IMG/VR virus record: IMGVR_UViG_3300027752_000118
Span: 1-23,498 of that record
Strand: one strand, 5' to 3'
Source: a virus
DNA length: 23,498 bases
Notes under the pieces: generated by a model
Databases searched by the model: none
The model's input: only the letters and a program-made list of their open reading frames with translations
Told to the model about the DNA's origin: nothing
Program-made: the position numbers and the translations under genes
Part shown: positions 10,890-22,628 of the stretch, one piece after another
How the letters are laid out: each line of letters begins with the position of its first letter
How positions within the stretch are numbered: the stretch's first letter is position 1

Positions 10890-12086
10890 CTACTTCTTAG
10901 GTTTTTTGCCATCGCCATTATTAAGGTTATCGCCTCGTCTGCTAGGAGCCTGACTCTTAACACCAGTAGGAAGAACTGCCTTGTTGTCTTCCAAGTCTTC
11001 AAGGTCAGGGTTAGATTGCTTATGCATCTTAATAAAATCTTTAGAACCCTGTGAAGCAGTGTCGTCATAAGGTTCGCTTTTGGTTGCGCCCTGAGTTTGC
11101 TTGTTCGCTTCCATCACGGCAAGTGCTTCGCGCATACTTGATACTCTCCAATTTGCTTCAGATGCAAAGTCTTCCTTACGCATACCCTTCATCTTTTCAG
11201 TTGTGGGTTCGCCATTGTCAGATTCTTCATCATCCTCATCATCGTTTTTCTTAGCGTCTTTCTTTATACCCTTGCTAGGTTTCTTATCATCCTTGTAGGC
11301 TTCTTCTTCATCCGCTACAGGATCATCGCTCTCTTCCATCGCCTTCAGTTTCTCACCGATAACTTCTAACCACTCAGGCATTTCAGCAGATTCATTTTGG
11401 TCTTTCATTGACGATTGAACTTTTGCTTTGACATCTTTCCAAGCAGCAACATAGTCGCGAGTCTCTTCATTTGGGATCAACTCTTTTACTCTGGCATCAA
11501 ATGCTTTACGCACTCCAGGTTTCATTGAAGTGCCGCCACCCTTCCAACCATCTCGATATAACTTTCCAAGTTCGTCATCTGTTTGAGTGAGTTTGTGAAC
11601 CTTGGCAATTACTTTCTTCTGCTTACCAGTAAGAGCTCTCCAAGCATCCTTCATCATTTCTTTTGCTGCCTGTTTATATGTCTTACCACCACCAACACCC
11701 CCAGGACCTACGAGCATGTTTATGGGCAAGTTTGCTTCCATCAAATCACTGATTGATTCATTAAACTCATTTATATCGTCTTCGTCTTCGTCTTCGTCTT
11801 TCTTCTTGGCGAATGGATTGACACCCTTCTTAGGTTTCTTGGATTTCTTTTTGTCATCTTCGGAATCTTCTTCAGAATCATCTTCTTCAGAATCATCTTC
11901 TTCCTTAACGTTATCCTTGGAAATCTCTTTACCGATTTTCTTTCTACGGTTAGCGAGATACTTGTCTGATTCATCTTCATCGCCATCGTTATCGATGTCG
12001 CCATCTGCCTGACCTACTGGGTCAAGTTTTTTCTCTTGGACTTCCTTCCAAGATTCCCATATTGATTTGATTGATTCTAAGTCCAC
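10890..12086 (-). CDS. Acidic low-complexity virion/core-like protein with dockerin-like Ca2+ loop
   Basis: 398 aa, starting with GTG; GGAG 8 bases upstream supports this. Residues 21-44 read LDPVG...DKYL, and within them D30-I-D32-N-D34-G-D36-x-D38-x-x-D41 is a 12-residue EF-hand or dockerin-like calcium loop. This block occurs in many marine T4-like virion proteins as I recall. Two acidic stretches follow (about 60-78 'EEDDSEEDDSEED' and 95-104 'KDEDEDEDD'), alternating with lysine-rich ones. A glycine-rich 'GPGGVGGGK' precedes a basic helical part (about 133-210). The composition resembles a scaffold/core or internal head protein. It begins 'SIKSIWES', with a possible I-x-E protease site (I9-W10-E11). 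A late promoter box lies 35 bases upstream. Role is inferred. Confidence 0.62.
   Translation of the reverse strand: MDLESIKSIWESWKEVQEKKLDPVGQADGDIDNDGDEDESDKYLANRRKKIGKEISKDNVKEEDDSEEDDSEEDSEDDKKKSKKPKKGVNPFAKKKDEDEDEDDINEFNESISDLMEANLPINMLVGPGGVGGGKTYKQAAKEMMKDAWRALTGKQKKVIAKVHKLTQTDDELGKLYRDGWKGGGTSMKPGVRKAFDARVKELIPNEETRDYVAAWKDVKAKVQSSMKDQNESAEMPEWLEVIGEKLKAMEESDDPVADEEEAYKDDKKPSKGIKKDAKKNDDEDDEESDNGEPTTEKMKGMRKEDFASEANWRVSSMREALAVMEANKQTQGATKSEPYDDTASQGSKDFIKMHKQSNPDLEDLEDNKAVLPTGVKSQAPSRRGDNLNNGDGKKPKK
11776..11799 (-). repeat. Four perfect 6-bp tandem units (poly Asp-Glu)
   Basis: TCGTCT on the plus strand is repeated four times and encodes the D-E-D-E-D-E run of the acidic protein. 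The six-base period keeps the frame, so copy number can change without a frameshift. Confidence 0.8.
11866..11903 (-). repeat. 15-bp tandem repeat, 2.5 copies, in the acidic protein
   Basis: Two perfect 15-base units (TCTTCTTCAGAATCA, 11866-11880 and 11881-11895) and a partial third (to 11903). They encode the D-D-S-E-E repeats. The unit is a multiple of three, so slippage only changes the length of the acidic tract. Confidence 0.8.
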
Positions 12087-12103: not shown

Positions 12104-12487
12104 TTATTCTTTAGTTGTTTTATTTATATTATTATTTATTGCCACTTGACTTTCGTAGTAATCAATAATCGCTTGTTGCTGTTCTATGTATCGTTTTATC
12201 TCTGAAAAATTTAAGGATAAGTTTTCGTAACCCACAACAGAAGTTGCAATAACTGCTACAGCACCATTCTTCCTTTCATATTCAGAAAGAAAATCTCCCA
12301 CATTGTCAGATGTGATGGCATACCATCGGACATCATTTAGTTCAATTGGTCGAGGATGCGCCCTTAAAGGAATATCCTGATTTTTTATTATTGTCCTTGT
12401 TACTATTTCAGGGGTTGACGCGCAACCAACTAAACTACCTATTAGTAATAGACTCAATATCGTCAAAGGTTTTTTTAGTCCCAGCAT
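12104..12487 (-). CDS. Lipoprotein, putative outer-membrane spanin subunit (o-spanin)
   Basis: 127 aa. A lipoprotein signal is clear: basic 'LKK', hydrophobic 'LTILSLLLIGSLVG' and lipobox L19-V20-G21-C22. After cleavage, C22 would carry the lipid anchor in the outer membrane. 'ENLSLNFSEIKRYIEQQQAIIDYYESQ' (about 89-115) is a helical segment near the C-terminus. The gene overlaps the end of a membrane-anchored coiled-coil gene by 53 bases in another frame, the arrangement typical of Rz/Rz1 spanin pairs, which fuse inner and outer membranes in the last step of lysis. It is longer than lambda Rz1, and not proline-rich. Other phage lipoproteins remain possible. Confidence 0.65.
   Translation of the reverse strand: MLGLKKPLTILSLLLIGSLVGCASTPEIVTRTIIKNQDIPLRAHPRPIELNDVRWYAITSDNVGDFLSEYERKNGAVAVIATSVVGYENLSLNFSEIKRYIEQQQAIIDYYESQVAINNNINKTTKE
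12121..12128 (-). promoter_or_regulatory. T4-type late promoter box upstream of the acidic protein gene
   Basis: TATAAATA on the minus strand, 35 bases before the GTG start at 12086 and inside the 3' end of the lipoprotein gene. It matches the T4 late consensus read by the gp55-type sigma factor. Confidence 0.6.
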
Positions 12488-12815
12488 TTATTCTATTCTC
12501 TATAAGTCCAGGTTTTTTCAATGTCAGACGAGTGAGGTTGTGCCTTTGAAGCATATCTGCTAATTCGTCTTTTCTTTCTTCTGACCTTTGAAGTTCTACT
12601 TCAAGTTCAGCAGATAAAACTTTAGTTTTAAGAAAGTCTTCTTGCATATCGTCAATCGCTTTTTTATTATCTTCAGCAGAAATCTGGAGAATAATGTTAT
12701 TCTCCTCAAGTTGACTTATGATACTCTGGGTATTCTTATAATACAAATACCCTCCAGTAGTTACTGCACCAAATCCAAGAACTAATACTAATATTAGTAT
12801 TAAAGTAGACTGCAT
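12435..12815 (-). CDS. Membrane-anchored coiled-coil protein, putative inner-membrane spanin (i-spanin)
   Basis: 126 aa. A single N-terminal membrane segment (about 5-25, 'LILILVLVLGFGAVTTGGYLY') has almost no residues before it, giving N-in/C-out topology. It is followed by a charged coiled-coil-like helix (about 30-92). A basic end 'NLTRLTLKKPGLIENRINAGTKK' follows; this ending is, from memory, common in T4-like marine phages. This is the layout of Rz-type i-spanins. AAGGA lies 5 bases before the ATG, which overlaps the stop of the polyprotein gene (TAATG). The gene overlaps the lipoprotein gene downstream. Holin and endolysin are about 8 kb away, so the lysis genes are split. Confidence 0.66.
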   Translation of the reverse strand: MQSTLILILVLVLGFGAVTTGGYLYYKNTQSIISQLEENNIILQISAEDNKKAIDDMQEDFLKTKVLSAELEVELQRSEERKDELADMLQRHNLTRLTLKKPGLIENRINAGTKKTFDDIESITNR

Positions 12816-15802
12816 TATTTTCCTTTCTGCTGCATAGAACGCAAAGTCTTCAAAAGAGTAATGCGATACTTGCGCTTCTGCTCTGGTTTCTCAAGTTTGT
12901 CGTAGACAGCAAGCAGTTTATCTATCTGAGGTTTTTTCAGGTTGACAGTCGCTGCATCTTTTACTGGAGATACTCTTATTCCAAAACTACCATTTCCGAA
13001 GTTTGCAGAGTCTTGCGCCCTACGCAACTGCATTACGATGCTTTGTTTGTCTTCTTTTGATGTACCAACATAAGTTGTAGTCTTAGGTAACAAGCGAGTG
13101 TTCTTATCCTTACGTCCCGCCTTAGTTGCTCGCTTCGCTTTACGGTCTGCAATCATATCCTTTTCGCGTTGAGTCAACTCATCAAGATGCTCGACAGATT
13201 CTTTATTGACTCCAACAAACCCTCTAGTTCTATGGCGCAACTTATCGACCGTACTCAGACCACCTTTTTTATTGACATTCTTTGCTGCCCTAGACATACC
13301 TACTTCACGGTTCATAGATTTGTTAGAAAGAGTATCAGACCTAGAGTTTTGATCTTTATTCGCTTTCTTCAAATATGATATGCTGGTCGCTTTAGAGAGT
13401 TCGTCAACCTGATTGATTTCTTCGCCTATGTCAGAACCAAAGAGTCCTTTGTTTGCGCGTTGAGTACGAATGTTTCGTGCCTTACGCATTCCTTTGGCTC
13501 GGTCTTTTTTAGTGTCTTTCTTTGCGGCATCGGAGTAGCGATTCAAAAGTCTATTAGACATTTCATCAGTCTGCTCGACAGATTCAAGTACCCATTCCAA
13601 TGGACGATATGCTTTGCTTGTGCCAGTGTTCTTTTTAACAACCCATTTGTTGTCAGGATATTTACGACCCATCTCTGAAGGTGTTGTCGCCCGTTGCCCA
13701 ACCTTTGTTGCTTTTGCTTTTGGCGCAGTTGCTTTGATGTCTTGGTTCTCATCAACCTGATCGACAGACTCGTATGCTTTTCGATATGCTGCTTTAGTAG
13801 CAGCAGAGTTCTTTGCTCCCGCCTTGGCAGTCTTAACAGCAAGTCTAGGTTTGTCGCCCAATCGCATTAAAGACCTAGCAGTCTTTTTAGTTTCGCGATC
13901 CATCTTCTCATCAACTTGCTCGGCATCTTCTTTAACGAACTTGACAGGAACTTGTGTCATGCCCTGACGACCTTGGTGCTGTGTTACATAGTGTCCACCG
14001 TCTGGCCACTTACCTTTATGGTCTCTATGAATCTTAGCATACTTTGCTTTGGTCAGTTCGATTTCGCCATTCTTATTTTGCTTGGCAACGATCTCATCAA
14101 TCTGCTCGACAGATTCGGGAAGTTTCCTTGTCACCTTTTGGTGCCTACTCATAGCATCTTCTACGTCTTTCTTAAAGTTAGACATAGAAACTTTAGACAG
14201 TTTTCCAGATTTATTTTTCTTGCGTCCAGACAAACCTTGACGGTCTCGCATGATGTCAGTGCCGGAAACGCGATGACGACCATACAAAAGTTTGGAGATT
14301 GCCTTATCGCTTGAAACTTCAGCAGCAACTTTATCACCTGCTATCTTTTTGATAACTGCCATTGCACTTTTGTAATCTTTTTCAGTGATATCGCCATGAG
14401 AACTAATATCTACCAAATAGTCTTGCACAAGGTCTATCATACGCGCTAACAGTTCCTTGTTGTATGGTACAACTTTCTCATCAACCTGCTCGACAGATTC
14501 TTTGACGATATGTCCAGGTTTGTAGGCAGAGGTCAACAAGCGAATGAACTTGAGTTTCTGTGACTTGGTTTCAAATACGGGTTCATCAATCTCACCAGAA
14601 GAACTTTCTTGTGTAAGATAGTATGCCAACCCACGCTTCATGTTGACTTTGATAAGAGGCATGATGCTACCAGCAACGGTTCCACGACTTGTGTAACGGA
14701 AGATTTCTTCTCCCGCCTTCAACCTAACACTCTTGGTGTATTTCTTATCAAAGGCATTGAGCTTAAAGATTACCATAGCGGTTCGCGCACTTGTTCCAAT
14801 AACGCCTACTTCTTTGTAACCTTCTTTGCGACCATAACCCAACGCTGAGTCTTCACCGAAATCTGGTTTGTCGGTGTATTGAATCTCTATCGCCTTTTCC
14901 ATCAAGGCATTAACGTCATAAGGTTCAACGCGCATTCCTTCTTTCAAAGACTTAGCACTTACTGCCATATCGCCCTGTGCCATGCTGACATTCTTACCGT
15001 CACGCTTGTAGAGGTATGACGCTTGTGCCATAGGATTTTTTACACTCTTCAGGGTAATCTTTTCAATCTTGCCACCCTTCAGTTTGCTTTTGCGAGTTAC
15101 GATGAACTCTTTCTCACCACTGCCACCCATGACAGAACTAAAATCAATAGTTACTTTCTGCTTGCTCTTCAGTCTATCAAACTGCTCTACACTGATGCCT
15201 TCGCTAAGACCTTCATTTCGTTTACTTTTCTGATAAGCGTTGTACTCTTTACGCCTCTTAGCATCTGCTGCTTTCTCTTTAGGTGTCATCTGTGAAACAG
15301 GTTTCTTTGCTTCTCCAACTTCCTCAACTGACTCGTTACTTTCCATTGTTCTTTTTCCTTTGGGTGCTGGGTGCATTTTGTTAACAGCGGCTTTCGCTTC
15401 TGCTGCGCTTTTGTATGGACCCATCTCATGAGTCTTCTTACCATCTGTAACTTTGACAAAAATAGGGGAGGACATTGATGTGCCACGCCTAACTGTCTTA
15501 ATATTTATATCGCCACGAACATGGGATGATATGAGTTTGTCTGTGCCTTCACCGATAGATTCTTTCTTGCAATCAGGAACCAACTTACCACCTTTCTTCT
15601 TAGTGCCAGTTGCCTTGTATCCGTCCCAACAGGAATCACTTCCAACGTTGTCACGCGCTTTTTCCAAGTCGCCTTCTTCTTTGTAGATGTCCTTCTTGTA
15701 TTTAGAAGCACCTTTCTTAGCGTCTTTCTTGCGGTCGCGTTGAACGGTCGCCTTGTTAAAAGTCCGTAGATACTTTGCTACTGGATTACTCTTACCTTTC
15801 AT
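12815..15802 (-). CDS. 995-aa basic modular protein with eight protease-site-like repeats (putative internal-head polyprotein)
   Basis: Eight copies of an octapeptide close to E-S-V-E-Q-V/L/I-D-E end at residues 164, 442, 570, 632, 685, 747, 801 and 875. They split the chain into nine modules of about 164, 278, 128, 62, 53, 62, 54, 74 and 120 residues. Each repeat ends in hydrophobic/T-x-E, like the L/I-x-E site of T4 gp21 prohead protease. Most modules are very rich in K and R. The first has a cysteine pair (C58...C78) around a 'TKKKGGK' loop. I infer a polyprotein packaged in the prohead and cut into small DNA-associated peptides; a repeat-bearing structural protein that stays whole is the alternative. 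A late promoter box and AGGA precede the ATG. Confidence 0.72.
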   Translation of the reverse strand: MKGKSNPVAKYLRTFNKATVQRDRKKDAKKGASKYKKDIYKEEGDLEKARDNVGSDSCWDGYKATGTKKKGGKLVPDCKKESIGEGTDKLISSHVRGDINIKTVRRGTSMSSPIFVKVTDGKKTHEMGPYKSAAEAKAAVNKMHPAPKGKRTMESNESVEEVGEAKKPVSQMTPKEKAADAKRRKEYNAYQKSKRNEGLSEGISVEQFDRLKSKQKVTIDFSSVMGGSGEKEFIVTRKSKLKGGKIEKITLKSVKNPMAQASYLYKRDGKNVSMAQGDMAVSAKSLKEGMRVEPYDVNALMEKAIEIQYTDKPDFGEDSALGYGRKEGYKEVGVIGTSARTAMVIFKLNAFDKKYTKSVRLKAGEEIFRYTSRGTVAGSIMPLIKVNMKRGLAYYLTQESSSGEIDEPVFETKSQKLKFIRLLTSAYKPGHIVKESVEQVDEKVVPYNKELLARMIDLVQDYLVDISSHGDITEKDYKSAMAVIKKIAGDKVAAEVSSDKAISKLLYGRHRVSGTDIMRDRQGLSGRKKNKSGKLSKVSMSNFKKDVEDAMSRHQKVTRKLPESVEQIDEIVAKQNKNGEIELTKAKYAKIHRDHKGKWPDGGHYVTQHQGRQGMTQVPVKFVKEDAEQVDEKMDRETKKTARSLMRLGDKPRLAVKTAKAGAKNSAATKAAYRKAYESVDQVDENQDIKATAPKAKATKVGQRATTPSEMGRKYPDNKWVVKKNTGTSKAYRPLEWVLESVEQTDEMSNRLLNRYSDAAKKDTKKDRAKGMRKARNIRTQRANKGLFGSDIGEEINQVDELSKATSISYLKKANKDQNSRSDTLSNKSMNREVGMSRAAKNVNKKGGLSTVDKLRHRTRGFVGVNKESVEHLDELTQREKDMIADRKAKRATKAGRKDKNTRLLPKTTTYVGTSKEDKQSIVMQLRRAQDSANFGNGSFGIRVSPVKDAATVNLKKPQIDKLLAVYDKLEKPEQKRKYRITLLKTLRSMQQKGK
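13178..15334 (-). repeat. Eight dispersed 24-bp repeats (ESVEQVDE family) in the 995-aa gene
   Basis: Units lie at 13178-13201, 13400-13423, 13562-13585, 13748-13771, 13907-13930, 14093-14116, 14477-14500 and 15311-15334, all in frame. The plus-strand core CTCGACAGATTC is identical in four units and nearly so in others, including at synonymous positions. Spacing is irregular and the spacers code for unrelated modules, so this is neither a CRISPR array nor a simple tandem repeat. Confidence 0.85.
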
Positions 15803-15827
15803 GACTATTTTCCTAACAGTTTAACTT

Positions 15828-15835
15828 TATTTATA
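15828..15835 (-). promoter_or_regulatory. T4-type late promoter box upstream of the 995-aa gene
   Basis: TATAAATA on the minus strand, 25 bases before the ATG at 15802. It overlaps the stop codon of the preceding 131-aa gene. Confidence 0.68.
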
Positions 15836-16226
15836 CATCAGCAAAGTGCGACTTAAAACGTTTAATAGTTCTTTCTTCTTTTATGTATAAAGTTCTATAT
15901 GCTTCACGATCTTTTTGTCTAAGGTCTCTCAACTCTTTACCAAACACTTTCATCATTTTTTGGTTCATCTTTTTTTCTTTCTCGTAAGCAACAGTCCAAG
16001 CAGTCTTTGCTGCTCTCCACTTAGGACTAGTCCTGATGTTTTCGGGTGTCATGCCCATTGAGTCTTTGTTCTTACCTTTATCATAACCCAATGACTTTTC
16101 TACCGCATCCCACTTTGCTTTCAGTTTGTTGACAGTATCTTTTTGAGCAGCAATTTGTTTTGCAGAAAGATAGAATACTTTGCCGTATTCTTTTTCTAAG
16201 TCTAAACTTTCAGTAACCTTTTTCAT
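15831..16226 (-). CDS. Basic helical protein, function unknown
   Basis: 131 aa. Charged and helical throughout, rich in K and R, with 'SPKWRAAKTAWTVAYEKEKKMNQKMMK' (about 67-93) and a C-terminal 'EERTIKRFKSHFADV'. There are no cysteines, membrane segments or catalytic motifs. The N-terminus 'MKKVTESLDLEKEYG' contains V4-T5-E6, which could be a protease site like those in its neighbours, but it lacks the F-x-x-Y-L core, so I do not count it with the CTS set. It lies between the tail-fibre-like gene (30 bases upstream) and the 995-aa gene. Ribosome site is weak (GGTGA). A minor virion protein is the most likely role, from context only. Confidence 0.6.
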   Translation of the reverse strand: MKKVTESLDLEKEYGKVFYLSAKQIAAQKDTVNKLKAKWDAVEKSLGYDKGKNKDSMGMTPENIRTSPKWRAAKTAWTVAYEKEKKMNQKMMKVFGKELRDLRQKDREAYRTLYIKEERTIKRFKSHFADV

Positions 16227-16256
16227 TTTATTTTCACCAAGGTTTATCTGTTGTTG

Positions 16257-17258
16257 TTAAAGATCGATCCATGCTCCACCAAAGATGTCAGTATACATAC
16301 TAATCTTCGCTGTAGTAGAGTTAAATACCAATTCCCCTAGAACCATATCTGTCAAAGCATTTCTCTCTACTTCGGTAAAAGATGGCAAAATGGGACCTCC
16401 GTATTTACCTACAGCACCCGTTCCGTTGACTGACATACCTGTATCATCAATTTTGAGTCTTCCGTTGACTGACATACCTGTATTATCAATTTTGAGTCTT
16501 TCCAACTGGCCAGTAGCAATAATTAGCGTACTAGTCATCGTGCCATCGTATGGCACAGAAACCCCATCAATGTCGATAGAAGAGGACGACCCGATAATAG
16601 TGTTATTTTGACCTGTAGTGATAAAAGAACCCGCACTTCTACCTATGCAAGTATTCCAATTTCCTACTGACGCGTTCTCCTGACCTGCCAGAGCTTGAAA
16701 TCCTATAGCAGTATTATTCATGGAGGACGCGCTCCATTTCAATGCCAAAGCACCAATTGCAACATTAGACGACCCAGTCACATCCCTCATGCATGCTTCA
16801 TAACCCACTGCCGTACAACTAGTACCACTTGTCTTGTCTACAAAGTTGGACCTACCGAGCGCAGCACAGTCTGTGGCACCGTTATTTGTGAGCGTAAAAG
16901 AATTATCACCAAATATAGAATTGCTCGCAATCTGTGAAGCACCGTAGGAGTAAATAAACCCGTTCGCTTTTATGTTATTAAACCCTCCAATATTCCCTAC
17001 AACGAGCAATCCATTTTCAGGGGCATTTATAGTAACTGTTCTCGTTGCATTTAACGCAGTAACTTTTAAAATATCACTCGACCGCCAATTCCCAGTCTCA
17101 TAGTTCCATACGGGAATTTCCCCAGTGGCAGTCTCAGGAGCTCCAGCAGGAGGTTCAGGATCGCTTATGATTCCATTTAAAGCAGTGAAGTTATTATCTA
17201 ACTCAGCGGCAGTAAGTGGTACACCTTTCAAGAGTCTTAGAGTTAAGTTGGCTGACAT
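16257..17258 (-). CDS. Tail-fibre-like protein with repeated N-x-A-I-G motifs
   Basis: 333 aa. The N-terminus (SANLTLRLLKGVPLTAAELDNNF) is typical of phage fibre proteins that join a fibre to a virion base (L-T-x-A-E-L-D-x-N-F). The middle has beta-type repeats: 'TAVGYEAC', 'NVAIGALAL', 'NTAIGFQAL', 'NTCIGRSAG', 'NTIIGSSSS', spaced about 22-28 residues, as in trimeric left-handed beta structures. The end 'GELVFNSTTAKISMYTDIFGGAWIDL' resembles a fibre-tip or trimerisation motif. It probably takes part in host recognition. A 39-bp tandem duplication lies just before the C-terminal part. AGGA precedes the ATG, and two late promoter boxes are upstream. Composition is Asn/Gly/Thr-rich and neutral, unlike its basic neighbours. 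Confidence 0.8.
   Translation of the reverse strand: MSANLTLRLLKGVPLTAAELDNNFTALNGIISDPEPPAGAPETATGEIPVWNYETGNWRSSDILKVTALNATRTVTINAPENGLLVVGNIGGFNNIKANGFIYSYGASQIASNSIFGDNSFTLTNNGATDCAALGRSNFVDKTSGTSCTAVGYEACMRDVTGSSNVAIGALALKWSASSMNNTAIGFQALAGQENASVGNWNTCIGRSAGSFITTGQNNTIIGSSSSIDIDGVSVPYDGTMTSTLIIATGQLERLKIDNTGMSVNGRLKIDDTGMSVNGTGAVGKYGGPILPSFTEVERNALTDMVLGELVFNSTTAKISMYTDIFGGAWIDL
16422..16499 (-). repeat. 39-bp direct tandem duplication in the fibre gene
   Basis: Units 16422-16460 and 16461-16499 differ at one base (C/T), causing Asp versus Asn. Each encodes 13 residues, R-L-K-I-D-D/N-T-G-M-S-V-N-G. The length is a multiple of three, so the frame is kept. The near identity suggests a recent slippage or unequal recombination event. 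Confidence 0.93.
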
Positions 17259-17284
17259 AATTTTTTCCTATATATATTATTCTT

Positions 17285-17292
17285 TATTTATA
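17285..17292 (-). promoter_or_regulatory. T4-type late promoter box, proximal, upstream of the fibre gene
   Basis: TATAAATA on the minus strand, 27 bases before the ATG at 17258, in the 73-base gap after the cytidylyltransferase-like gene. Confidence 0.68.
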
Positions 17293-17296
17293 CTTT

Positions 17297-17304
17297 TATT
17301 TATA
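17297..17304 (-). promoter_or_regulatory. T4-type late promoter box, distal, upstream of the fibre gene
   Basis: A second TATAAATA 12 bases upstream of the proximal box, so the two are in tandem and one DNA turn apart. Confidence 0.6.
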
Positions 17305-17331
17305 TTAGCAAATTGTAAGTGCGTAATAAGA

Positions 17332-18231
17332 TTATCCTATATAACGATTACTTCTCTTTTTGATATCGATGAATTTTTTAGTGCCTGTCTTTTTTTCTTT
17401 GATGACGGGTTCAGTTTTCTCAACAGCATTCAACCATTTCTTGACAGTACGATTCTCATCAAGTTCAACTACAACATAGTTTGTTCCAAAATATGTAATG
17501 ATGCCCATCTCATCTGACTCTTTTATGATTACAGTGTCGCCCATCTCAAACAAATCACCTTTTACAAACTGTTCACGTTCTTCAGATACTGGTTCAAGTT
17601 CTATATGCCGCCTAAATATTGTATCTTCTTTAAGTCCCATAGCATCACGCACATCCATGAACAACCTTTTCGCGTCCTTGTTTGCCATCGTGGTAGGTAA
17701 TCCTTGGGTGAATGAAGAAAAGTCATTTTCGCTTGCAAACTTACGCATCTTAGAGGCAGACATACCACTCACACCTTCTGCGTCAGGGTCTCGTTCACCA
17801 GCACTAACAACAGAGATAGACTTGAAGTTATAGAAACCATGTGCGCCTTTTACCCCATTGTACTTATTGAGTAGAGTTTCAAACTCACGAACACGGTCAC
17901 TACCAGCAACGAATACAACACTGCGGTAACCTTTATCATAGAGATAGGTGGATGCATCAAATGCGGTACGGACCTTTTTATTAATCAAAACCCTTCGGGC
18001 ATGACGGGGAAACATTTTACGAACATGCCGCACCTTTGAGGTGTAGTCTAAAGGATTCTTTTTCTTATCTTGAGTCTGTGATAGAAATGCAAAGTAATCA
18101 CTCTTACCTGCTTTCTCTGCCAGAGCATCCAAAAGTTTACCGTGACCAATCGTAGGAGGATTAAGTCTGCCAAACGCATAGTAGGCAACCTTATCCTCTT
18201 CGATCAGATAATTACTGAACGAGGATATCAT
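17332..18231 (-). CDS. Cytidylyltransferase/NMNAT-like nucleotidyltransferase with a C-terminal beta domain and CTS-like N-terminus
   Basis: 299 aa. 'GRLNPPTIGHGKLL' (residues 21-34) is the T/H-x-G-H signature of the cytidylyltransferase-like superfamily, which joins NMP to a phosphorylated small molecule. 'SGMSASKMR' (155-163) is the second, I-S-G-T-x-x-R-like motif; 'VVFVAGSDR' (105-113) is the strand before it. The C-terminal third (about 222-275, 'FVKGDLFEMGDTVIIKESDEMGIITYFG...') looks like a small SH3/KOW-type beta barrel. The protein begins 'MISSFSNYLIEED', which fits the capsid-targeting pattern with a site after L9-I10-E11. Packaging in the head is inferred from that and from position. 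TAA-ATG joins it to the 448-aa gene. The true substrate is unknown. Confidence 0.75.
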   Translation of the reverse strand: MISSFSNYLIEEDKVAYYAFGRLNPPTIGHGKLLDALAEKAGKSDYFAFLSQTQDKKKNPLDYTSKVRHVRKMFPRHARRVLINKKVRTAFDASTYLYDKGYRSVVFVAGSDRVREFETLLNKYNGVKGAHGFYNFKSISVVSAGERDPDAEGVSGMSASKMRKFASENDFSSFTQGLPTTMANKDAKRLFMDVRDAMGLKEDTIFRRHIELEPVSEEREQFVKGDLFEMGDTVIIKESDEMGIITYFGTNYVVVELDENRTVKKWLNAVEKTEPVIKEKKTGTKKFIDIKKRSNRYIG

Positions 18232-19578
18232 TTATGATTCTTCCTTCTTATTGGAGTTGGCATTTGCCCTTCTCTCCCTATCTTGTATTCGAACAATGGG
18301 TAACATTTTCTTCGCCATATTGTCTATTTTTTTAGAAGCATTCTTCAAACGCTTCTCAACGTTTGCTCTTTGAGAAAAGGTCAGGTCAGCTTTAGACTGA
18401 CCTTTCATCCATTTTTTTACCAGTTTATTTTTCGCCTGCTTCTTTGCCCTGAGTTTCAATTTCTCAGGGGTAGGTGCGCGTTTCATAGAACGTTTCTTTG
18501 CCATCTGGATACGCTTGGACATTTTCTTCATACGCTGCTTTGCTTTGATACGCTGGGCAACACTGAACGCTTCATCAACTTGCTCGACAGATTCACGCCC
18601 TCGCGGCCGTTCGATCGGTCCTTTATGTTTCTTTGATTGAGATTTTATCTCGGAAGCAATGTTTGCTTTGACCTCATCATGGTTTTTAAACCGCTTTGGG
18701 TGATATTCTTCATATCCCTCTTTGCCGTTACTCTTTTTCCAAGAATAACCAATATGTCCCTGATTTCCCGCTTTGGTAAATTTAACCTTGGTTCCCCCAA
18801 TGTCGTGAGTTTCACCTGCTTTAATATAGTCGGACGGTCCCCGATTCGGTGTCTTTTTATTCTTAAATCGCAGTTTATCTAAAATCCCACCCTCATCAAC
18901 TTGCTCGACAGACTCTTCATATTTGTATGGGAGTTCTTTGACAATCTTGACTGGAACTTTTGTAGTCCCTGCGCCACCACCCAAGGAGGTAAATTTTACG
19001 CCTCCCTTTGTTACTCCAGATTTCTGGTTCTGTATGATGTAAAGTTTTCCACCACTCTTGCCCTTTTTGTTTTTAGGGTATGAATCATATTTCGCTTGAG
19101 TCATCTCAAGTGGACGAACCTTTTCATCAAGATGCTCGACAGATTCGCGAGTGTCATATTTATTGGTGTATGATTTAACAGCAGATGGTTTGGTTTTTTC
19201 TTTCGCTTGTAATTGTAAGTCAGTACCTCGGTTTCTTAAATCCACATAAAGGTTACCATCTTTTGATTTCCAGTATCCCAAATCGGTTTTGGCATTAAAT
19301 TTCCGTGGCAGTTCGTCTTCAAAGAATTTTACTGCTTGTTGTTGTGTAAACTTTGTGTCTCTTATCAACTGTCGCTTTTTAGACAGTTTGCTTTCCTTGC
19401 CGGGTGGCCTGCCACTTGCGTATTCCATTTCATCAAGATGCTCGACTTCTTCACCGACAGTTCCACGGTGACGCTTCTGCGCCTGATAGTTTATGTACTG
19501 ACCTTCGCCAGGAACATAGTCCACCACAGTGAAGTCTTTGAAGGACATTCTTTTTAGTTTATCGTCCGTATTTTTCAT
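18232..19578 (-). CDS. 448-aa basic modular protein with four protease-site-like repeats (second putative polyprotein)
   Basis: Four octapeptides of the ESVEQ(V/L)DE family end at residues 50, 152, 229 and 336, giving modules of about 50, 102, 77, 107 and 112 residues. The last module is extremely basic ('RIKAKQRMKKMSKRIQMAKK...' to 'KKMLPIVRIQDRERR') and looks like a nucleic-acid-binding peptide; it resembles, from memory, a module widespread in marine T4-like virion proteins. Module 153-229 resembles module 571-632 of the 995-aa protein (T-x-A-K-Y ... T-x-V-P-V-K-x-V-K-E). The N-terminus 'MSFKDFTVVDYVPGEGQYINY' is also of a recurrent marine phage type. The ATG overlaps the previous stop (ATGA). 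Inferred to be cut by the prohead protease. Confidence 0.72.
   Translation of the reverse strand: MKNTDDKLKRMSFKDFTVVDYVPGEGQYINYQAQKRHRGTVGEEVEHLDEMEYASGRPPGKESKLSKKRQLIRDTKFTQQQAVKFFEDELPRKFNAKTDLGYWKSKDGNLYVDLRNRGTDLQLQAKEKTKPSAVKSYTNKYDTRESVEHLDEKVRPLEMTQAKYDSYPKNKKGKSGGKLYIIQNQKSGVTKGGVKFTSLGGGAGTTKVPVKIVKELPYKYEESVEQVDEGGILDKLRFKNKKTPNRGPSDYIKAGETHDIGGTKVKFTKAGNQGHIGYSWKKSNGKEGYEEYHPKRFKNHDEVKANIASEIKSQSKKHKGPIERPRGRESVEQVDEAFSVAQRIKAKQRMKKMSKRIQMAKKRSMKRAPTPEKLKLRAKKQAKNKLVKKWMKGQSKADLTFSQRANVEKRLKNASKKIDNMAKKMLPIVRIQDRERRANANSNKKEES
18571..19452 (-). repeat. Four dispersed 24-bp repeats (ESVEQVDE family) in the 448-aa gene
   Basis: Units at 18571-18594, 18892-18915, 19123-19146 and 19429-19452. 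They share the same DNA-level core (CTCGACAGA) as the repeats in the 995-aa gene, except the last unit, where AGA is replaced by TTC. The units at 19123 and 13178 differ at only one of 24 bases. Confidence 0.85.
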
Positions 19579-19778
19579 GATGGATATTTCCCATTACCTA
19601 TTTCTAGTTTATTTTTTGGCATGTGCTTTTGTGTGCGTTTAACGTATGCTTTCGCTTCTTCTTCTGATTCAAATCTACCCATCTTACTATTTGACTTAAA
19701 CGAACTGGGCGAGTGAACATACCAAGGATGAGACTTCGTGGTTTTTGCTTCTCCAAGGTATTTAGCGAACTTTATCAT
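19575..19778 (-). CDS. 67-aa protein with capsid-targeting-like N-terminus
   Basis: The N-terminus 'MIKFAKYLGEAK' is the clearest match in the window to the T4 internal-protein targeting sequence, with a protease site after L8-G9-E10. The remaining 57 residues have 'HPWYVHSPSSFKSNSKMGRF' then 'ESEEEAKAYVKRTQK', a beta-beta-alpha-like pattern. The same pattern (I/W-x-V ... M-G-x-Y/F-x-S-x-x-E-A-K-A) is found in the first module of the 995-aa protein ('EMGPYKSAAEAKAAVNK'). It therefore looks like a stand-alone copy of a polyprotein module. ATGA overlaps join it to both neighbours. Function is unknown; a packaged peptide is the best guess. Confidence 0.68.
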   Translation of the reverse strand: MIKFAKYLGEAKTTKSHPWYVHSPSSFKSNSKMGRFESEEEAKAYVKRTQKHMPKNKLEIGNGKYPS

Positions 19779-20290
19779 TTCCTTTCCAACGTGTATGTCG
19801 TTGCTATCCTGTTTGTGTTCTCTTTGACCTTGAAGTCTTTGGAAAAGTATCGTTTTATCAAACGACTATACAACTTCTCGCGACTCTGCATTTTCTTTGC
19901 TGCTTCGGGGTCAACTTTCTTGAGTGCCGCCATCTTCTTGAGGTCAGTTTTCTCTGCGCTGAACATGATATACTTGGGGTCTTCCGCTTTTATGAACTGC
20001 CTAATGGCATCAATAACTGTTGAGAATACCCTTACCTCATCGCCTTGCCCAGTTGCATCCAAAGATGACGCTCTGGTATTTGCGTTCTTTGTTCGTGTGA
20101 AGATGATTTCCCAATCAAGTTCTTCAGGGTCGTTGACTTCAGGTGTACCTATCATTCTGATCTTTAGTTTGGTTCCGTCATCCAATACTGCTTCGCCTGA
20201 GTACATTGCACTGTCACCCCCACCCATGCGCGTCAGCGATATTTTATATGGAGAGTCAAACGCTTCATTGAATTGCGAGAATCGTTTCAT
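19775..20290 (-). CDS. CTS-bearing virion-type protein, paralogue A
   Basis: 171 aa. Begins 'MKRFSQFNEAFDSPYK', with a possible protease site after F7-N8-E9. The core 'TGQGDEVRVFSTVIDAIRQF', then 'DPKYIMFSAEK' and 'QSREKLYSRLIKRYFSKDF', is shared with the protein at 20874-21353, so the two are paralogues. The first half is beta-rich and the second helical. I recall similar proteins in other marine T4-like phages, without a function. An insertion of about 8-10 residues ('KMAALKKVDPEAAKKM') distinguishes it from paralogue B. Overlaps join it to the small CTS gene and the ParB-like gene (ATGA). Confidence 0.72.
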   Translation of the reverse strand: MKRFSQFNEAFDSPYKISLTRMGGGDSAMYSGEAVLDDGTKLKIRMIGTPEVNDPEELDWEIIFTRTKNANTRASSLDATGQGDEVRVFSTVIDAIRQFIKAEDPKYIMFSAEKTDLKKMAALKKVDPEAAKKMQSREKLYSRLIKRYFSKDFKVKENTNRIATTYTLERK

Positions 20291-20877
20291 CGTATGTTTC
20301 CGTATGAGAACATTATGGGCATCTGCTTGATGCCGACTGCCTTTGCAATTCCAAGTCTATGATTGCCTTCGCCCAGAAGAACTTCAACGTCACCGTTCTT
20401 TCTTCGGTCGATGGTTACATAACCGTGTTCTTTGATTCCATTCTTCTTGATGTCAGCAGTGAGTTTCTTCATCTCTGCTTCGGTGTTCTTACCAGTGTAA
20501 CCATCAATCATCTTGCGGTCGTATTCTCTTATCTTCCACAACTCGCTTACGTCAATCATCGGTTGAAAGTTATCAGCAACCTTTATGTTACCGTTCGCAA
20601 ATATCTTGATGATGTTATCGAGAGTTACCTTACCACCGCATGCTTTCTTCAGTTCGCCTTGTGAACGAACATATTCGGCAAACCCCTCTTGTTTCTGCCC
20701 ACTGTACTTGCGAGGTTTGTATGACTTGTATGGACTCTTTGGTTTGGCATACTTTGCGAGGACAGCATCCGACTTCTTCATCACCTTATTGATTTCTGCC
20801 TGAGAGACAGGTTCAAAGTCTGCGAGTAGGTCATCGAGGAAACCTTCTTGCAAGAGATATGATTTTAACTTTATCAC
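20287..20877 (-). CDS. ParB-like nuclease-fold protein with CTS-like N-terminus
   Basis: 196 aa, starting with GTG in a GTGA overlap. The C-terminal 60 residues carry the ParB/sulfiredoxin-type core: 'LTADIKKNGIKEHGYVTIDRR', then 'VEVLLGEGNHRLGIAKAVG' with G-E-G-N-H-R at 169-174. The G-x-x-H/N-R motif is the nucleotide or phosphate site of the fold. ParB proteins bind CTP and spread on DNA, while relatives act as nucleases or ATPases, so the exact activity is open. There is no helix-turn-helix, so it is not a plasmid-partition ParB. It begins 'MIKLKSYLLQEGF', with a possible site after L9-Q10-E11, and lies between two CTS paralogues, which suggests packaging. Confidence 0.74.
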   Translation of the reverse strand: MIKLKSYLLQEGFLDDLLADFEPVSQAEINKVMKKSDAVLAKYAKPKSPYKSYKPRKYSGQKQEGFAEYVRSQGELKKACGGKVTLDNIIKIFANGNIKVADNFQPMIDVSELWKIREYDRKMIDGYTGKNTEAEMKKLTADIKKNGIKEHGYVTIDRRKNGDVEVLLGEGNHRLGIAKAVGIKQMPIMFSYGNIR

Positions 20878-21353
20878 TTACCTTTCCTCGTCATAAAGAA
20901 AAGAGACTCTCTGCTCCCCGCCTCAACTCTTATTGTATACTTACCCGAAAAATATTTCTTTGCCATTCGCAGATACAACTTCTCGCGACTCTGCAACTGT
21001 TTGGTTCCAGTGTCCTTAGACTTCTCTGCCCCAAAGGATACATACTTAGGGTTTTCTTTTTTCAGAAAGTCCTTAGTGATCGCCAGAACAGTAGAGAAGA
21101 TTCGCATAGCATCACCTTCTCCTGTCGTATCAAATCTTGTTACTTGTGAACCTGACTTCTGACGAAAAAAACTTAAAGTCCAATCATACTCATCGTAATC
21201 ATCAGGATGTTCTGAACCTGTAATGACTACAGTTACCTTACCACCGTCTTCAGTCTGAAAGGTATATTCATACTCATCGTTATACTTCTTACCACCACTG
21301 TACTTGTATGGTGTGTCAAACGCTTCTGTAAGGTAGTGGTCAAATCCTATCAC
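20874..21353 (-). CDS. CTS-bearing virion-type protein, paralogue B
   Basis: 159 aa, GTG start directly after the TAG of the upstream gene. 'MIGFDHYLTEAFDTPYK' matches the N-terminus of paralogue A ('...FNEAFDSPYK') and has a perfect L-T-E protease-site candidate at residues 8-10, the same tripeptide used in T4. The shared core reads 'TGEGDAMRIFSTVLAITKDF', 'NPKYVSFGAEK', 'QSREKLYLRMAKKYFS'. No catalytic motif is evident. A duplication followed by insertion of the ParB-like gene, or a duplication across it, explains the layout. Confidence 0.72.
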   Translation of the reverse strand: MIGFDHYLTEAFDTPYKYSGGKKYNDEYEYTFQTEDGGKVTVVITGSEHPDDYDEYDWTLSFFRQKSGSQVTRFDTTGEGDAMRIFSTVLAITKDFLKKENPKYVSFGAEKSKDTGTKQLQSREKLYLRMAKKYFSGKYTIRVEAGSRESLFFMTRKGK

Positions 21354-22589
21354 CTATCCGCGCCCCTTAGAATCCCAACCCTTTAAGATGTTGGGCGAAA
21401 AGTTATTGTAACTGAACTCCATACGGTCAACAAGTTTGACTGCATTGCCACCGAGTTTATCAATGGCAACGAAACCCTCTTGACCAGTAACCTTGTATCC
21501 CTTACTTGTCTTGACGAATGTGCCAATGTTTGCAAGGTCATTGAGTTTATTTATAAGAATTAATTTAGCAGTAACAAGTTGTTTTTGCAACTCAAACATA
21601 TTGGTAAGACTTGCTGTATTTTCCTTTGAAAAGAAAGACAGTATCTCTGCGAGTTTCTTTTGTTGAACTTTCTTACCAGCATCAGTTGAACGCTTGTCTT
21701 CTTCTTTCTTGTACTTCGCCTTTAACCAAGTCTGCAATGCAATAGTATGTCTGCGCGAGTTATTAACAATCTCGCCCTTACGGACATAGGTGTTATTAAA
21801 CTGTTCTATCAGTTGAGCAAGTTGTGGGTTCGCCTCCAGTTGACGCAGAGTGCTTCCTGCTACTTTAGAAAACAACTTACCCGCATTAGATAAAGCAGCA
21901 TCAACCTCTTTAGTTTCTTTCTCTGTTAGTGTGGCAACAGAGACATCACGCAACATTGCATCTTGCGACCATACCTTACTTGTGCTTTTAAGTTTGTCTA
22001 CATCAACACCGTAAGATGCTTTTAGTTTTTCAAATGACGAACCTTTATATGTCGTGTGCCAAACGATTCCAATGGTCGCCTTCTTTGTTTCCTTTGCGCC
22101 AGTAGAATTAGTAGGGAATGCATAGACAATAGTGTTGGGGTGGAATGTCATAAACTTTTGCCCAGCAATACTTTTACTGGTTACATCGCCAGGACCGAAT
22201 AGGAAGTCGCCTTGTATGATACCCTTAATACCAATTAGTGGTAGCAGTTCAAGTGCTGCATTCATTTTTGTATTGAGGTCACCAGATGTATCGGCATCAA
22301 CATCTGCTTTTGTTTTATAGACTTTGGGGTTCTTGTTAAATACACCTTTCTTAGCGACAAAAAACTTTCCATCACTTGGGTCGGTTCCCGCAAATATTGC
22401 TGGTGCGCCATCCCACTTCACAGAAATATCTTGCTTGTGTTTGCCCTGAAGCATATCACGGAGTTCCCTCAAGGCGTTGATTGCCTGTCGGGTTCCTTCC
22501 ACGCCACCATAAATAACTTGATCTTCCAAGTGTGTCATGTGGGTGTTTTTTTGCTCAGAAAGAATCTGTTGGTGTAGAAATGATTTCAT
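21354..22589 (-). CDS. DUF6267-like protein with KxDG nucleotidyltransferase motif and CTS-like N-terminus
   Basis: 411 aa. 'MTHLEDQVIYGG' and 'SVKWDGAPAIFAG' (K58-W-D60-G61) match, from memory, DUF6267 proteins of T4-like phages. K-x-D-G is motif I of DNA/RNA ligases and mRNA-capping enzymes, where the lysine takes the nucleotide. 'GKFFVAKKG' (74-82) and 'IIQGDFLFG' (125-132) are in the right order and nature for motifs III/IIIa and IV, and 'IGIVWHTTYKG' may be motif IV/V. It lacks the usual second basic residue after KxDG (here A rather than R). The first residues 'MKSFLHQQILSEQ' end in L10-S11-E12, a possible protease site. Two late promoter boxes are upstream. It may be a packaged ligase-like enzyme; this is inference. 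Confidence 0.72.
   Translation of the reverse strand: MKSFLHQQILSEQKNTHMTHLEDQVIYGGVEGTRQAINALRELRDMLQGKHKQDISVKWDGAPAIFAGTDPSDGKFFVAKKGVFNKNPKVYKTKADVDADTSGDLNTKMNAALELLPLIGIKGIIQGDFLFGPGDVTSKSIAGQKFMTFHPNTIVYAFPTNSTGAKETKKATIGIVWHTTYKGSSFEKLKASYGVDVDKLKSTSKVWSQDAMLRDVSVATLTEKETKEVDAALSNAGKLFSKVAGSTLRQLEANPQLAQLIEQFNNTYVRKGEIVNNSRRHTIALQTWLKAKYKKEEDKRSTDAGKKVQQKKLAEILSFFSKENTASLTNMFELQKQLVTAKLILINKLNDLANIGTFVKTSKGYKVTGQEGFVAIDKLGGNAVKLVDRMEFSYNNFSPNILKGWDSKGRG
21548..21555 (-). promoter_or_regulatory. TATAAATA inside the DUF6267-like gene, possible internal late promoter
   Basis: The box lies in coding sequence (L-I-N-K region), about 195 bases before the start of paralogue B. It may be chance in an AT-rich codon run. 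Confidence 0.25.
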
Positions 22590-22608: not shown

Positions 22609-22616
22609 TATTTATA
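22609..22616 (-). promoter_or_regulatory. T4-type late promoter box, proximal, upstream of the DUF6267-like gene
   Basis: TATAAATA on the minus strand, 20 bases before the ATG at 22589, in the 40-base gap after the 282-aa gene. Confidence 0.65.
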
Positions 22617-22620
22617 AGAC

Positions 22621-22628
22621 TATTTATA
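22621..22628 (-). promoter_or_regulatory. T4-type late promoter box, distal, upstream of the DUF6267-like gene
   Basis: A second TATAAATA, again 12 bases upstream of the proximal box, the same spacing as the tandem pair before the fibre gene. It ends just after the stop codon of the 282-aa gene. Confidence 0.6.

Follow-up and report, generated by a model that had tools for sequence, protein, structure and literature searches.

Exchangeable modules joined at candidate prohead-protease sites in two large proteins of a T4-like marine phage

Results

Two modular proteins and a third member in a T4-like late-gene block

We analysed a 23.5-kb stretch of DNA (the window), a fragment of a T4-like marine phage genome that carries nrdA, nrdB, phoH and spanin genes and has its late-gene block on the minus strand. 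The region adjoining nrdA/nrdB holds two large open reading frames, here called A and B, and a third gene of the same kind that encodes an acidic protein. Overlapping Rz/Rz1-like spanin genes (12104-12815) lie directly downstream of A.

12815-15802, minus strand: protein A, 995 aa, module order a-b-f-g-h-i-j-k-l-m-n
18232-19578, minus strand: protein B, 448 aa, a 50-aa N-terminal part and then modules x-y-w-v
10890-12086, minus strand: acidic 398-aa protein, module d after FNE↓S and LME↓A

A sequence-only reading had described A and B as polyproteins divided by 12 copies of one octapeptide, ESVEQ(V/L/I)DE. Both frames are present as it gave them, 995 and 448 aa on the minus strand, and all 12 sites end at exactly the residues claimed (the arrow marks the putative cut).

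15311-15334, minus strand: joint ESVEEVGE↓A, residue 164 of A
14477-14500, minus strand: joint ESVEQVDE↓K, residue 442 of A
14093-14116, minus strand: joint ESVEQIDE↓I, residue 570 of A
13907-13930, minus strand: joint EDAEQVDE↓K, residue 632 of A
13748-13771, minus strand: joint ESVDQVDE↓N, residue 685 of A
13562-13585, minus strand: joint ESVEQTDE↓M, residue 747 of A
13400-13423, minus strand: joint EEINQVDE↓L, residue 801 of A
13178-13201, minus strand: joint ESVEHLDE↓L, residue 875 of A
19429-19452, minus strand: joint EEVEHLDE↓M, residue 50 of B
19123-19146, minus strand: joint ESVEHLDE↓K, residue 152 of B
18892-18915, minus strand: joint ESVEQVDE↓G, residue 229 of B
18571-18594, minus strand: joint ESVEQVDE↓A, residue 336 of B, preceding the basic helical module v

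The octapeptide is exact at only 4 of the 12 sites, however, and the others are variants, among them ESVEEVGE, EDAEQVDE, ESVDQVDE, ESVEQTDE, EEINQVDE and EEVEHLDE, so that the family reads E-x-[VAI]-[E/D/N]-[QHE]-[VLIT]-[DG]-E. The loose pattern E-x4-[VLIT]-D-E matched 11 sites, against 0.08 expected from composition-preserving shuffles. The P3 residue is Val at 7 sites, Leu at 3, Ile at 1 and Thr at 1, and the strict T4 rule, L/I-x-E, fits only 4/12. We found three further probable joints of like chemistry in A, which the earlier reading had passed over, as it had the acidic third member.

15548-15562, minus strand: probable joint ESIGE↓G, residue 85 of A
15200-15211, minus strand: probable joint GLSE↓G, residue 201 of A (HLTE↓S at the same module edge in relative L002)
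14939-14950, minus strand: probable joint SLKE↓G, residue 288 of A

The modules are mostly 50-130 aa long (12 of 14) and nearly all basic (pI 9-11.6), as had been described. The label of small DNA-binding peptides found no support beyond the basic charge: the modules tested gave no significant or credible match to a DNA-binding family in Pfam, PHROG functions or the PDB (by sequence, and for one module by fold). In Pfam, A matched only DUF7230, at its N-terminus, and B had no match. This domain, the first 40 aa of A (12815-15802), forms the N-terminus of several of these proteins and could be a head-targeting part in place of a classical leader. Inspection of the N-terminus of A found no short leader ending in L/I-x-E, and B begins with no more than a weak MSFKDF-like stretch.

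Modules are exchanged between phages at the motif

Two relatives (L001 and L002) are 60-96% alike to the window in parts, and more distant ones are L003, L004, L059, L130 (contig G002, 138.6 kb) and L062/L196 (contig G001, 153.9 kb). They encode proteins of the same build of 1165, 1301, 991, 1035, 536 and 991 aa, plus partial ones. Using 27 hand-defined queries, since single-linkage clustering had merged chimeric pieces, we found 27 module types permuted across eight contigs. The orders in the relatives are as follows.

L001: a-b-c-d-e-f-g-i-o-j-k-?-n
L002: a-b-c-d-h-p-q-f-g-r-i-k-j-n
L003: a-t-h-?-u-s-n
G002: d-s-q-r-A-r
G001: u-q-t-s-n, with a DUF7230 start under the hit threshold yet visible
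L059: w-o-j-k-n
L004: k-i-p

The first residue of an internal module copy follows directly on a Glu, which in nearly every case belongs to the motif. Module h, for example, is preceded by g, d or another module, and always stands directly behind ESVEQVDE. The same module can also sit in A in one phage and in B or the acidic protein in another. Module d forms part of the acidic protein in the window and of the large protein corresponding to A in the sister phages L001 and L002 and in G002; L001 has module o in its large protein and module u in its protein B, whereas in L002 module o belongs to the acidic protein and in L003 module u belongs to the large one. Over 397 bp of module h the window and L003 share 99.0% identity, and the DUF6267 and cytidylyltransferase genes of the same pair align at about 67%. 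Module q is 98.2% identical between L002 and G002. Module exchange between these phages is recent and exact, and it occurs at the motif. A separate stretch of the window, the ParB-like gene region (20244-20849), has about 93% DNA identity to L003 and G001 with neighbours at about 67%, which suggests recent transfer of a single leader-bearing gene.

We then compared the ends of nucleotide alignments of at least 80% identity with the motif, taking those ends for which both partners are within these genes and scoring the ones that lie no more than 4 bp from it. Of 70 such interior ends, 52 lie on the 24-bp motif in both partners; with sites rotated at random (2000 trials) the mean was 0.47 and the maximum 8, and because the sequences are phylogenetically non-independent, p-values for this comparison and for the module v edge below are descriptive only. 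At the protein level the result was moderately clear, with 42% of BLASTP ends on the motif against 22% in the null, as alignments overrun, and the nucleotide comparison gives the cleaner answer. The joints thus coincide with the boundaries of independent modules, as in a polyprotein.

The DNA of the motif is itself uniform. Codon choice in it is uniform far above background (Ser is TCT in 26/28, P3 Val is GTT in 32/33), and conservation stops abruptly at the edges of the 24 bp. Close copies of this DNA in the window and in the near-complete relatives G001 and G002 are all in frame within multi-motif open reading frames (26/26), which rules out a DNA element used elsewhere. EEVEQIDE or ESVEQLDE also occurs in unrelated phage contigs, there spelled by different codons. 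On these observations the motif DNA behaves, or is passed on, as a seam, and what lineages retain is the peptide. Neither the codon uniformity nor the exchange exactly at the motif had been noticed in the sequence-only reading.

The glutamate before module v is kept behind unrelated sequences

18235-18570, minus strand: module v, 112 aa, four predicted helices, mean pLDDT 91.5

Module v is a stand-alone protein elsewhere and is predicted to fold alone; a PDB search found no solved look-alike of the predicted four-helix fold. It is a gene of its own in HTVC008M, Melnitz and C48C1, behind leaders that end VVE↓A, LIE↓R and VSE↓V (for example MLSFKQFVSE↓V), and in fused form it follows DLTE↓A (DLP6), HLDE↓V (G002) or VDE↓A (the window). 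The residue preceding it is Glu in 39/47 homologues (background 13%), and the next residue is Ala in 28 and Val in 10 (A or V in 38/47). The P1 Glu is thus kept at this edge though the sequence upstream has been replaced by unrelated leaders or by DLTE↓A.

The sites and the prohead protease of relatives

The prohead protease gp21 of T4 cuts after L/I-x-E (PMC9026906). We found no gp21 gene in the window, which is a 23.5-kb fragment of a genome. Among 13 related contigs over 100 kb, 12 encode an S77 (gp21) protease and one, of 156 kb, has no S77 match. In one record (G012, the record of L117) the S77 match at 217856-218185 falls within a 597-aa open frame, possibly a protease fusion. The related contigs carry a gp23 maturation site of the form LTE↓T, LTE↓A, MTE↓T, MTE↓A or LNE↓A, and their gp21 has LTE or IVE near its N-terminus.

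Across the clade (n=43 polyprotein sites) P1 is Glu in 43/43 and P3 is Val in 33, Ile in 4, Leu in 3, Phe in 2 and Thr in 1, in keeping with a relaxed rule of P1 Glu and hydrophobic P3. Beyond this core P8 is Glu in 43/43, P5 is Glu in 37/43 and P4 is Gln in 38/43. In the N-terminal leaders described below P3 is mostly Leu or Ile, with Val in 5/80. Since Val at P3 is common in the joints and rare in leaders, either the protease accepts Val or the ExVEQ context compensates. Inside the modules [LIV]xE is depleted (48 versus 64 expected), whereas control proteins have 43 versus 32.5 expected.

Neighbouring genes carry T4-like leaders

In T4, capsid-targeting leaders of 10-19 residues bring internal proteins into the prohead and are then cut off (PMC9026906). 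Leaders of this kind start six genes around B.

17332-18231, minus strand: cytidylyltransferase-like protein, leader MISSFSNYLIE↓E
19575-19778, minus strand: 67-aa protein, leader MIKFAKYLGE↓A
19775-20290, minus strand: protein, leader MKRFSQFNE↓A
20287-20877, minus strand: ParB-like protein, leader MIKLKSYLLQE↓G
20874-21353, minus strand: protein, leader MIGFDHYLTE↓A
21354-22589, minus strand: DUF6267 protein, leader MKSFLHQQILSE↓Q

We read the leaders orthologue by orthologue, a simple leader regular expression applied to whole genomes having matched only a few proteins per genome. The N-terminal leader region contains [LIVFM]xE in 46/49 distinct orthologues of the cytidylyltransferase and 34/36 of the DUF6267 protein (80/85 in all), and many of these leaders have the T4 form M..F..YLxE. 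Published mass spectrometry detected the cytidylyltransferase family in purified virions of the cyanophages S-SM1 (PMC3037559) and, together with the neighbouring ORFs 155, 156 and 160, of S-CREM2 (PMC10665884). In two other relatives, small genes directly upstream of gp21 (L187, 8864-9052; L200, 9128-9349) start MKSFQEIRE↓A and MKTFKQIRE↓A; they are probably unrecognised internal proteins.

Late-promoter boxes precede A and the acidic gene

The T4-type late box TATAAATA occurs 8 times in the window versus 1.1 expected, always on the gene strand. Boxes precede A, the acidic gene, a fibre-like ORF and the DUF6267 gene, and a search of the window found none at the starts of nrdA, nrdB or phoH. 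Paired boxes 12 bp apart lie at 17285-17304 and 22609-22628. By this promoter match, A, the acidic gene and the DUF6267 gene are predicted to be expressed late.

15828-15835, minus strand: late-promoter-like box TATAAATA, 26 bp upstream of A
12121-12128, minus strand: TATAAATA box upstream of the acidic 398-aa protein gene
22609-22628, minus strand: double TATAAATA box upstream of the DUF6267 gene

Discussion

The best reading of these data, to which we give a probability of about 0.74, is that A and B are prohead-processed polyproteins that would deliver an exchangeable payload. The proposal that a gp21-type protease cuts them, made in the sequence-only reading, gains from the module joints, the leaders, the virion proteomics of a neighbouring family, the late promoters and the presence of gp21 in relatives; for A and B themselves we infer packaging, cleavage and injection. 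In the mechanism we propose, A, B and probably the acidic third protein would be late-expressed precursors of the head interior. They would enter the prohead with the internal proteins encoded alongside, which bear T4-like capsid-targeting leaders. At maturation, a prohead protease of the gp21 family (S77) would cut after the last Glu of E-x-V-E-Q-[V/L/I]-D-E and at the simpler L/I-x-E joints. This would free some 14 or more mature modules; most are basic and may remain with the DNA to be injected. Recombination at the 24 bp of joint-coding DNA would add, remove and reorder whole modules, giving a different payload in each phage.

The octapeptide might alternatively stay uncut and serve to bind the prohead core, targeting from several internal positions a protein that is packaged whole, as the virion RNA polymerase of phage N4 is packaged uncut. 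We consider this unlikely. In its favour, the motif surpasses L/I-x-E in length and conservation, and because the extended ExVEQxDE goes beyond what T4 gp21 needs it may bind something; A also has no N-terminal leader for targeting, and T4 leaders join targeting with cleavage (PMC9026906). Those targeting leaders are also cut, however, and neither the Glu kept before module v behind unrelated leaders or DLTE↓A nor the depletion of [LIV]xE inside modules fits a motif that only binds.

That the motif is mainly a 24-bp DNA seam for cassette exchange, its peptide a merely tolerated linker, would account for the codon uniformity, for conservation over exactly 24 bp and for homology that breaks on the motif. 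It seems to us improbable as the full account, given that all 26 DNA copies are in frame, that other phages write the same peptide in different codons, and that homologous joints with other DNA (DLTE↓A, VVE↓A, VSE↓V) retain hydrophobic-x-Glu; a DNA seam is likely true as an addition and not the whole story. Least probable, and in our view very much so, is that A and B are ordinary multidomain proteins of the infected cell whose likeness to hydrophobic-x-Glu sites is coincidence. The border with nrdA/nrdB would suit such proteins, as would the fact that no homologue of A or B has been reported in a virion, but the late-promoter boxes, the T4-like leaders on neighbouring genes and the detection in virions of the cytidylyltransferase family and of the adjacent S-CREM2 ORFs 155, 156 and 160 speak against them.

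On the favoured reading, that of a processed payload polyprotein, the closest known systems are those of T4. Like IPI, IPII, IPIII and Alt of T4, the locus would combine mostly basic small products, late expression and a gp21-type protease (here in relatives), with short leaders of the form M..F/Y..F/YLxE↓ on the window's neighbouring genes. Each T4 internal protein, in contrast, has one gene and one leader, whereas here one open reading frame holds many modules and up to 8 octapeptide joints, mostly V-D-E. The T4 core proteins gp22, gp67 and gp68 share the plan of a single precursor with several gp21 cuts inside the prohead (the cutting being proposed here), but their cuts mostly destroy and clear the scaffold. 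Here the joints fall at domain edges and the modules are conserved, suggesting that the products are retained. The system would work like the internal- and core-protein system of T4, yet we place it outside the family of classical internal proteins, since A has no leader of their type and the start of B is weak.

Giant phages (phiKZ, SPN3US, 201phi2-1) also cut many head proteins after Glu with a gp21-like protease, some at several sites. Their sites mostly remove N-terminal propeptides, however (13/14 in SPN3US, PMC10052503), and they are not known to have a multi-module polyprotein bearing a repeated extended site. Repeated cutting of a single head precursor is known from gp22, gp67, gp68 and giant-phage propeptides (PMC10052503, PMC5694885). 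Polyvalent proteins such as DarA and DdrB of P1 (Iyer et al. 2017, PMC5512222) are likewise multi-domain, modular and shuffled; they are predicted to be packaged and injected, and some are proteolytically processed (PMC5512222). They differ in having large enzymatic domains and often their own peptidase, where A and B have unannotated modules of 50-130 aa with a uniform joint, and Pfam found in neither the several large conflict-related enzymatic domains of that class. The literature we searched held no earlier description of the octapeptide or of prohead-protease polyproteins, nor of a precursor in which many modules share one uniform, extended joint and are exchanged at it. Polyproteins of many parts are characteristic of eukaryotic RNA viruses; in tailed phages we know of none described at such a scale.

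Each phage probably carries in its head a set of small proteins of its own, open to change. We would more tentatively suggest, at somewhat less than even odds, a combinatorial cassette system within a coding gene, in which the 24-bp element may be both recombination seam and in-frame protease site for the release of each module and may give T4-like phages a rapidly exchangeable set of injected small proteins. The cultured Synechococcus phage S-SKS1 (host WH7803) encodes, beside nrdA/nrdB, a related protein of 683 aa (AGH31595.1; L209, 4471-6519) whose x-D-E joints read EEPEQLDE↓A, EEYIDE↓M, ESENVDE↓A and EEFEQLDE↓L, which makes this cyanophage a ready laboratory model. If right, the reading accounts for large uncharacterised ORFs of marine T4-like phages, offers a sequence rule to predict injected head proteins and opens to study a system in which cassettes are swapped quickly within the limits set by a protease. 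Early takeover and anti-defence would be foremost among the roles to consider for the payload modules.
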